Both the position numbers and the translations under genes were made by a program. From contig JAITIP010000015.1 in assembly GCA_031279415.1 (NCBI GenBank), positions 1 through 64,000 of the forward strand: a stretch of DNA of 64,000 bases, read 5' to 3'. Every line of letters begins with the position of its first letter. Position 1 is the stretch's first letter. A model generated the notes under the pieces. That model made no database searches, was not told the origin of the DNA, and saw only the letters and a program-made list of their open reading frames with translations. Below are positions 5,378 to 38,894 of the stretch, one piece after another. Source of the stretch: Candidatus Endomicrobium procryptotermitis. Lineage in GTDB: Bacteria > Elusimicrobiota > Endomicrobiia > Endomicrobiales > Endomicrobiaceae.

Positions 5378-6307
5378 TCAATTAGAAAAAGTGACATCAT
5401 ACATATTTACTTTTCTGATAATTTTTCTAACTGTTTTGATTTTCTTTTCTTTCAATATATCTTTGATGCCGTCTATCACTTTTACTATATTCTGTGGAGA
5501 TATTAAACTTGCCGAACCAACACTTACAGCAGATGCGCCGGCAAGCATAAACTCTACGGCGTCTTCGCCTGTGGTTATTCCACCACAACCGATTATTGGA
5601 ATTTTTAAATCGGGATATGTGTCATAAACACATCTTAATGCCATCGGCTTTATGCACGACCCGGACATTCCGCCTTTAACGGTTGAAAGTTTTGGTTTGA
5701 AAGTTTTAACGTCTATAGCCATTGCCGGATAAGTGTTTGCAAGAGTTACACCGTCTGCGCCAGCATTTTGAGCAGCCAAAGCAAGCTGCGCAATATCAGT
5801 GATAAGCGGCGATAATTTTGCAATCAGCGGAACTTTCGAAATTTTTGCGACACTTTTTATAATGTCGGTCATCAAAGGCAAATCGTGACAGATTATTTTC
5901 TTTTTCAAATTCGGGCACGACAAATTTAATTCTATTGCAGATATTCCTTTTTGTGCACTTAAAATTTTTACTGTTTCAATATAATCTTTTGAACAAAAAC
6001 CCGCCACGCTTACAAAAATAGGAACGCCTATTTTTGATAATTTTTCAAGCGGCTCTCCGACAAAAGATTTAGCGCCTATATTTTGCAGCCCTATTGTATT
6101 GAGCAATCCCGCTTCGACTTCGGCAATTCTGGGCTGAGGATTACCACTGCGTGACTCAAAAGTAATTGTTTTTGTAACGATACCGCCAAGTCTTTTTAAA
6201 GGAATTAAATCGGCAAGTTCATACCCATAGCCGAAAGTACCCGACGCCGAAAGTACAGGATTTTTTAATTTTATTCCCGCAAAATTTATGCTTAGATCTG
6301 GTTTCAT
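5378..6307 (-). CDS. pyrD: Dihydroorotate dehydrogenase, class 1B catalytic subunit
   Basis: Oxidises dihydroorotate to orotate with FMN. The 309-residue protein carries the class 1 motif LNLSCPN with Cys131 as the catalytic base, and the late GCGGITTGEDAVEFMLAGA phosphate-binding region. Class 1B is indicated by the electron-transfer partner pyrK in the same operon, which lets the enzyme use NAD. Its ATG overlaps the stop of the preceding 41-codon ORF in the arrangement TAATG, so translation is probably coupled. Confidence 0.96.
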   Translation of the reverse strand: MKPDLSINFAGIKLKNPVLSASGTFGYGYELADLIPLKRLGGIVTKTITFESRSGNPQPRIAEVEAGLLNTIGLQNIGAKSFVGEPLEKLSKIGVPIFVSVAGFCSKDYIETVKILSAQKGISAIELNLSCPNLKKKIICHDLPLMTDIIKSVAKISKVPLIAKLSPLITDIAQLALAAQNAGADGVTLANTYPAMAIDVKTFKPKLSTVKGGMSGSCIKPMALRCVYDTYPDLKIPIIGCGGITTGEDAVEFMLAGASAVSVGSASLISPQNIVKVIDGIKDILKEKKIKTVRKIIRKVNMYDVTFSN

Positions 6308-6432
6308 TATTTAAATCCTAAAATTTTGCATATATTAATTATTTTTCTCTCGGTTTTTACTTTGTCAAGTAAAGCTCCTTTATTTTCGTATTTTTTCATT
6401 AACTCTTCTACTTCTTCATAGGTGTGATTCAT
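6307..6432 (-). CDS. Small 41-residue protein coupled to pyrD
   Basis: An ATG at 6432 is preceded by AGGAG with seven bases of spacing, one of the best ribosome-binding sites in the cluster. The product is 41 residues, charged and predicted helical (MNHTYEEVEELMKKYENKG at the start), with one cysteine near the end. Its stop shares a base with the pyrD start (TAATG). I do not recognise the family. It could be a genuine small protein acting on the PyrD/PyrK enzyme, or an ORF whose main job is to deliver ribosomes to pyrD. The site and overlap make translation likely; function is unknown. Confidence 0.7.
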   Translation of the reverse strand: MNHTYEEVEELMKKYENKGALLDKVKTERKIINICKILGFK

Positions 6433-6456
6433 TTTCTCACTCCTGCCTCAAAATTT

Positions 6457-6679
6457 TTAGCTTGTTGTCTCCAATATTTTAATTCCAAGTATTGGCCCCG
6501 GTTCTGCTTGAATTGCATGATGTAACTCAAATTTTTTAATATGGTGGTTTGCCTTCAAATCCCCCCCCCCCCCCCCCAGAAAACGCTGCTTTGTCTGTGT
6601 TGTTGGATAAAATGTTTGCCGCTGTTGTACATGAAAACGTAAATATTGAGATTAAAAATAAAGAAAATAATTTTTTCAT
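6457..6679 (-). CDS. Putative small lipoprotein, frame controlled by a poly-G tract
   Basis: The ATG at 6679 overlaps the pyrK stop as ATGA. The first 34 codons encode a lysine start, a hydrophobic stretch and FTFSC, an imperfect lipobox with Cys17, so export as a lipoprotein is plausible. Codons then enter a run of 17 G (plus-strand C at 6561-6577). With 17 G the frame stops at 6536 (47 residues). With 16, 13 or 19 G it would continue through a 34-residue tail ending at 6457 (73 residues with 16 G). The coordinates given span the longer form. I do not recognise the mature sequence. A simple assembly miscount in the homopolymer is the main alternative to phase variation. Confidence 0.55.
6561..6577. 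repeat. 17-base C/G homopolymer tract
   Basis: Seventeen consecutive C on the plus strand (G on the coding strand) lie inside the putative lipoprotein gene between pyrK and pyrD. Tracts of this length are prone to slipped-strand mispairing and commonly switch surface-protein genes on and off. Homopolymers are also common sequencing-error sites. No other mononucleotide G/C run in the window exceeds eight. Confidence 0.9.
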
Positions 6680-7449
6680 ATTTCTATTTCTTCAATTTTA
6701 AAAACAGGTCCGTCTTTGCAAGTCATTTTATTTTGACCGTTGATTTGAACCGCGCAGCCTTGGCAGCTGCCTATGCCGCAAGCCATTTTTTCTTCAAGTG
6801 AAGCATAGCCGCATATATTCTTTTCTCTTGCCATTTTTATAACCGCTTTCATCATTGCTGCAGGTCCGCACATATACAAAGTATATCCTGTCTTCAATCT
6901 TCTTTCCAATATCTGCGTTATAAGCCCTTTGTATCCTTTTGAACCATCTTCTGTGGAAACTATAACTTTCCAGCCAAGTTTTTTGAATTTATCTAAACAC
7001 AACAAATCTTTTTTTGCACGAGCGCCATAAAATAAAGTTCCCTTGTTTTCCAATTTTGACGCGAGAAAATAAACCGAAGCTATTCCCGTTCCGCCGGCAA
7101 CTATTACAGGATAATAATCTTGAAAAAATTTTGAAGTATACTCGTGGCAAGAAACTGGATAACCGCTGCCAAGAGGACCCAGCATTGAAATTTCACCGGT
7201 TTTAATTTCAGAAAGTTTTCTTGTGCCTTCTCCAGCAATTTTATATAAAAATGAAATTATACCATCTATGGCATTGTGAATACTTATGGGACGACGCAAA
7301 AAAACACCCGGTACGGAAATCATAAAAAACAAACCGGGAGCGCATGCTTTAATTACGTCATTTCCAGCATCAACATTCAGTTCAAAATATCCGCCGCAAA
7401 CTTCTTTATTGGAAATGATTTTATAGCTTTTATCAAAACGTTTATTCAT
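6676..7449 (-). CDS. pyrK: Dihydroorotate dehydrogenase electron-transfer subunit
   Basis: FAD and [2Fe-2S] flavoprotein that passes electrons from class 1B PyrD to NAD. The protein has a ferredoxin-reductase fold start, the FLRRPISIHN flavin-binding motif, a VIVAGGTGIA nucleotide-binding glycine loop and a C-terminal CX4CX2CX11C cluster (Cys224, 229, 232, 244) that binds the iron-sulfur centre. I choose ATG 7449 (257 residues, the family norm). An in-frame ATG at 7509 would add 20 residues unlike the family. It follows pyrC and overlaps the small lipoprotein gene by ATGA. Confidence 0.94.
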   Translation of the reverse strand: MNKRFDKSYKIISNKEVCGGYFELNVDAGNDVIKACAPGLFFMISVPGVFLRRPISIHNAIDGIISFLYKIAGEGTRKLSEIKTGEISMLGPLGSGYPVSCHEYTSKFFQDYYPVIVAGGTGIASVYFLASKLENKGTLFYGARAKKDLLCLDKFKKLGWKVIVSTEDGSKGYKGLITQILERRLKTGYTLYMCGPAAMMKAVIKMAREKNICGYASLEEKMACGIGSCQGCAVQINGQNKMTCKDGPVFKIEEIEI

Positions 7450-7529
7450 AGAAAAGGCGCCATACACCGCTAGGCTGTGGGATAAAATTGTCCATTTGCC
7501 GCCACACATCTTTAAAAATGAGAATTACT

Positions 7530-38840: not shown

Positions 38841-38894
38841 CTTTACCCGCCCCCCCCTCACAACTTTTTTATTTCATATTTTTATTAACATGAG

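Follow-up and report, generated by a model that had tools for sequence, protein, structure and literature searches.

A 17-G tract between pyrK and pyrD of Candidatus Endomicrobium procryptotermitis, located in the probable remnant of a polymorphic toxin–immunity cassette

Described systems and the pyrK–pyrD spacer

Long homopolymer tracts slip in replication. A parallel to the locus described here is NgoAV hsdS, in which the specificity protein is either truncated or fused depending on a single G (PMC9577141). Two further parallels come from polymorphic toxins: the SitA lipoproteins of myxobacteria, which PMC8546572 describes as modular lipoprotein toxins, and the Tox-LHH nucleases, which a survey table pairs with Imm-SUKH immunity proteins (PMC3482391). 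A family-wide genome study of 2024 (PMC11257099) does not mention phase variation, and no report of phase variation in the Endomicrobiaceae lineage was found in the literature searched.

The window analysed in the present study is the 64-kb contig C15 (64,000 nucleotides) of a 2.0-Mb assembly in 46 contigs. Within it, pyrK and pyrD are separated by a spacer of about 371 bp (window positions 6308–6676), both outer edges of which are flush with the two genes (Table 1), and no second copy of this spacer occurs elsewhere in the genome. An earlier note had described a G17 tract in a putative lipoprotein gene at this position and suggested a phase-variable switch. The spacer is probably a decayed polymorphic toxin–immunity pair of the Peptidase_M48 plus Pre-toxin-TG (M48 + PT-TG) type, with slippage most likely lacking a product-level function; the tract, its reading frames, the similarities by their statistics and the insertion hotspot are direct results, from which we infer the common origin of the spacer pieces, slippage itself, its lack of function at this locus and any coupling.

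Table 1. Coordinates of features at the pyrK–pyrD junction (window positions) and of poly-G tracts near contig ends (contig:positions)
Feature	Position	Strand	Basis
pyrD, dihydroorotate dehydrogenase, downstream	5378..6307	-	Pfam DHO_dh 1.7e-69
ORF2, 41 aa, probable N-terminal remnant of a SUKH-family immunity protein	6307..6432	-	SUKH_5 matches, codon usage
AGGAG, Shine-Dalgarno-like, 7 nt before the ORF2 ATG	6440..6444	-	sequence
Tail opened by 16 G, 33 codons + stop, possible LHH (HNH/Endo VII) nuclease toxin tip fragment	6457..6558	-	PF14411 E=0.029
ORF1 as assembled (17 G)	6536..6679	-	47 aa, ATGA overlap with pyrK
G17 homopolymer, slippage-prone	6561..6577	-	chance expectation ~1e-5 per genome
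ORF1 head, 34 codons, probable N-terminal remnant of an M48 + PT-TG polymorphic-toxin lipoprotein	6578..6679	-	profile 32.6 bits
pyrK, dihydroorotate dehydrogenase B electron-transfer subunit, upstream	6676..7509	-	Pfam DHODB_Fe-S_bind 8.6e-14, NAD_binding_1
Poly-G near contig ends, surface-glycan loci	C2:103-117, C2:7286-7302, C7:29889-29904, C24:22667-22799

The G17 tract and other poly-G tracts in the genome and family

Counting on the plus strand confirmed exactly 17 C, which is G17 on the minus (coding) strand, in an ORF between pyrK and pyrD as first described. In a first-order base model with the composition of the genome, runs of at least 17 would be expected about 1e-5 times in 2 Mb, and runs of at least 14 about 0.001 times; the length is far above this, and chance is excluded as the cause of the tract. 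The only other G or C run of at least eight within the window is a C8 at 38850–38857. Judging from the general behaviour of homopolymers, slippage of the G17 tract during replication is very likely.

The ATG of ORF1 (as assembled, MKKLFSLFLISIFTFSCTTAANILSNNTDKAAFSGGGGGGFEGKPPY) and the TGA stop of pyrK share the sequence ATGA, the coordinates of the two genes agreeing on this point with the earlier description, and 34 codons precede the tract. Changes in tract length alter the reading frame: 15 or 18 G give a product of 40 or 41 aa, 17 G one of 47 aa, and 16 or 19 G one of 73 or 74 aa with 34 residues beyond the glycines. The stop after 47 codons and the 34-residue tail opened by one base fewer were thus reproduced when the frames were recomputed. 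No length gives a complete functional protein, the longest product being 73–74 aa, and product-level switching is therefore unlikely.

The genome has six discrete tracts of 14–17 G, together with a contig (C24) whose end runs out into poly-G; a real tract there is probably followed by sequencing artefact. Two of the tracts, on contigs C28 (G17, at C28:14528) and C37 (G14, at C37:65703), split specificity genes that follow Type IIG restriction-methyltransferase genes (gene pairs at L099:2849-6075 and L100:2755-5702, respectively). They sit between the two recognition halves of the specificity gene, so that the assembled length specifies a half-size protein (~180–204 aa) and other lengths a fused one (~340–380 aa). 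Others lie at surface-glycan loci with genes for sugar epimerases, a glycosyltransferase and a membrane protein. With tracts in both specificity and glycan genes, G-tract contingency loci are credible in this genome on the sequence evidence. Four of the seven poly-G places are near the end of a contig (P ~3e-8 for a distance of up to ~120 bp), and the assembler evidently struggles at poly-G, which is what variable tract length or failing reads would produce.

Across the family, G runs of at least 11 occur in 36 of 77 genomes, with none in genera g10–g14, and genes interrupted by such runs include those for an MBOAT acyltransferase, an FkbM methyltransferase and a lipoprotein-like ORF. In one genome (G013, L078) a lipoprotein-like ORF contains a C13 tract after about 40 residues, with 238 open codons beyond it, and another (G052, L095) has an 11-base tract where a possible outer-membrane protein begins. 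In Endomicrobiaceae, then, it is ordinary for a gene to carry a slippage-prone tract.

Toxin and immunity similarities within the spacer

With the 73-aa form of ORF1 as query, only weak matches were obtained, and those in four relatives (G047, G048, G049 and G054) represent the N-terminus of one family. The proteins of this family in relatives have about 540–630 aa, and its intact members are lipoproteins of 581–632 aa carrying Peptidase_M48 and Pre-toxin-TG domains by Pfam (PF01435 and PF14449), with C-terminal tips that differ among relatives, one of them a ribonuclease domain. Against a profile of the four N-termini ORF1 scores 32.6 bits, above all of 67 lipoprotein-like decoys (best 18.4), and when the 18 residues after the Cys were shuffled only one of 2000 sequences reached this score. 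Signal peptides do resemble one another, which counts against reading the head as a toxin remnant, though these shuffles held the signal peptide fixed. The homology ends at the G17 tract; both domains are absent from the spacer by Pfam, and no M48 + PT-TG gene was matched anywhere in the window's own genome. Among relatives the gene is truncated in G047 and interrupted in G074, and in G048, G054 and G049 (L183, L184 and L185, respectively) M48 + PT-TG lipoprotein toxins are found with immunity-type genes downstream. In the "lipoprotein-like signal" of the earlier note, the FSC box fits the permissive PS00013 lipoprotein pattern but not the strict [LVI][ASTVI][GAS]C lipobox. The idea of an intact lipoprotein that alternates between ON and OFF is not supported by a head that is probably the N-terminus of a far longer toxin and that loses its homology at the tract.

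In the 16-G frame, the tail gives a match to the Pfam LHH family (PF14411) that is below the curated cut-off and covers 19 of 76 positions, and none of nine shuffles that kept the LHH letters matched anything. Its identity as a nuclease tip is suggestive only, though such a fragment does not support an intact lipoprotein gene; a complete C-terminal toxin domain was not found, only this LHH-like fragment. In a six-frame scan of 77 family genomes no LHH protein exceeded the cut-off, and the tail itself was not listed. That 33 codons stay open is no evidence of a gene, since the same occurs with a probability of about 0.17 when frames are wrong or the sequence is shuffled. Beyond the signal region, the 73-aa protein has no homologues in the PDB, genome_contigs, 77 family genomes or 341 phylum genomes, and the tail alone as query found none in plasmids. 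Two candidates were considered and set aside: a 341-aa Omnitrophota protein (L172, genome_contigs), in which the similarity is limited to the signal, and the tail as a continuation of the M48 toxin N-terminal region, for which 108 of 1000 shuffled tails score equally.

ORF2 ends in a TAA that overlaps the pyrD start (TAATG), and its codon usage is coding-like. Its alignment covers the N-terminal ~40 residues of SUKH proteins in two relatives: G048, where the genes form a tandem pair (L162), and G054, where an M48 + PT-TG toxin lies two genes upstream; by Pfam the proteins of both relatives are SUKH_5 (2.4e-22 and 3.4e-24). The similarity amounts to 15 bits, a score reached by none of 5000 full shuffles and by three of 5000 with HTYEE held. 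ORF2 alone gives no SUKH match in Pfam, no ORF2 was found in phages, and PADLOC assigns no defence family to ORF1 or ORF2. The small ORF, which the earlier note placed downstream of the putative lipoprotein gene, is more plausibly the cut-off N-terminus of a SUKH immunity protein.

Comparison of the pyrK–pyrD junctions of relatives, located with pyrD as bait, revealed a hotspot at which defence-type genes, among them restriction-modification pairs and Fic genes, have inserted. Endomicrobiaceae spacers at this site range from 4 bp to 3.2 kb (L103–L152), often with a first gene that adjoins the pyrK stop and a last gene that ends at the pyrD start. The cargo includes a DNA methylase with a MutH-type nuclease, a methylase with a DUF6996/DUF6997 protein, and Fic proteins. 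In G044 (L109/L149), a C11 at spacer positions 1729–1739 breaks the frame of a DUF6996/DUF6997-type insert gene, a nuclease-type gene with uninterrupted homologues in G043 and G017; the methylase gene at that junction is split as well. ORF1 is absent from the junction in all three same-genus relatives with an assembled junction, which have instead a Fic protein (G049), 172 bp (G050) or 4 bp (G052), and this also speaks against an intact lipoprotein gene. The hotspot may be partly known already, as PMC11257099 cites a 2016 study that deals with the restriction systems of these symbionts as mobile elements.

The leader, the nuclease tip and the immunity protein are three modest signals, and together they give the order expected of a toxin cassette. 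Most likely, a toxin–immunity cassette was acquired at the pyrK–pyrD hotspot, and deletions then removed the core of the toxin together with most of its tip, as well as the remainder of the immunity gene. What would be left over is a signal peptide with the first ~34 residues, the G17 tract, an LHH-like scrap and the first 41 SUKH residues, in so tight a packing that overlaps with pyrK and pyrD persist at the start and stop codons. Slippage of the tract almost certainly continues, yet every frame makes a mere stub of 40–74 aa, and the one plausible effect would be on the distance that ribosomes travel before ORF2, slightly tuning ORF2 and pyrD.

Competing explanations and comparison with known systems

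Several considerations weigh against this decay scenario. Each of the similarities is modest alone (a head of ~34 aa, a tail below the cut-off, 15 bits for ORF2); ORF2, whose codon usage is normal and whose ribosome site is good, may still be expressed; and it is surprising that a dead gene should have kept a long tract, unless it decayed recently. ORF1 might instead be a working contingency locus, a small lipoprotein varying the cell surface by alternating between 73-aa and 40-/47-aa forms. A long tract in an ORF with a signal peptide favours this, as do the well-placed tracts in specificity and glycan genes and the C13 tract in the lipoprotein-like ORF of another family member. This is unlikely, given a 73-aa protein without a homologue beyond its signal in the 77 family genomes, 341 phylum genomes or genome_contigs, a head belonging to a protein of about 540–630 aa, a tail with codon usage indistinguishable from chance open frames (p 0.17; stop-free null), and the unmatched strict lipobox. 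Of the proposed phase-variable switch, there remains a real tract, above chance and in an ORF, in a genome with other credible tracts; the full-length product is missing, and a functional ON/OFF switch at this locus is unlikely. Assembly could also mislead, either by joining unrelated places at G17 or by an error in tract length, and four poly-G places near contig ends and a contig that ends in poly-G junk are reminders of this. The spacer pieces form one coherent toxin–nuclease–immunity order with both edges flush, and the missing toxin core was not found elsewhere in the assembly, all of which makes an artefact highly improbable.

The tract could alternatively serve as a tuning knob for the operon, with the ORF1 stop position altering translation of ORF2 and pyrD or exposing the mRNA to Rho. 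The ATGA and TAATG overlaps and the AGGAG before ORF2 suit such a role, and translational coupling of tract length to ORF2 and pyrD may be possible on anatomical grounds because the untranslated gap before ORF2 shifts from 24 nt with 16 G to 103 with 17 G and 122 with 15 or 18 G. The effect would be small, given that ORF2 has its own strong ribosome site and coupling may be weak; neither a terminator-like site nor an unusual RNA fold was found at the spacer, and relatives tolerate from 4 bp to about 3.2 kb at this junction. A tuning role is accordingly quite improbable. A related thought, that a toxin-derived leader has been kept as a stochastic regulator in which slippage toggles translation into ORF2 and pyrD, is a slimmer prospect still; if true, pyrimidine synthesis would vary from cell to cell in this gut symbiont.

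If the spacer is a decayed toxin–immunity cassette, the odd tract is explained without a new type of switch, the ORF being a cassette stub in a biosynthetic operon. The locus itself is of low novelty, and greater interest attaches to the hotspot and to the tracts seen across the family. Poly-G contingency tracts are indicated in Endomicrobiaceae (Elusimicrobiota), including those in the two specificity genes.

Among described systems, NgoAV has the same layout as the C28 and C37 specificity genes, and its poly-G resembles the pyrK–pyrD G17 in being long, in coding sequence and frame-setting; at the latter, however, no length gives a full-length product. The SitA toxins are modular and carried as lipoproteins, like the intact relatives of ORF1, whereas only a stub that lacks a complete toxin domain is present at this locus. 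As in Tox-LHH/Imm-SUKH pairs, an LHH motif (in the tail) is followed by a SUKH N-terminus, but the later H, H and W of the profile are missing in the tail's frame, and the immunity protein, compared with its SUKH relatives, is cut after ~41 residues. There is also a resemblance to the M48 + PT-TG toxins of G048, G054 and G049: the locus lacks their metalloprotease, their pre-toxin region and a complete toxin tip, but ORF1 shares the N-terminal signal and first ~34 residues, including the S-x3-DKAA-x-S spacing after the Cys, with one residue fewer before it, and the toxin of G054 has a SUKH-type immunity gene nearby, as the ORF1 remnant probably does in ORF2.
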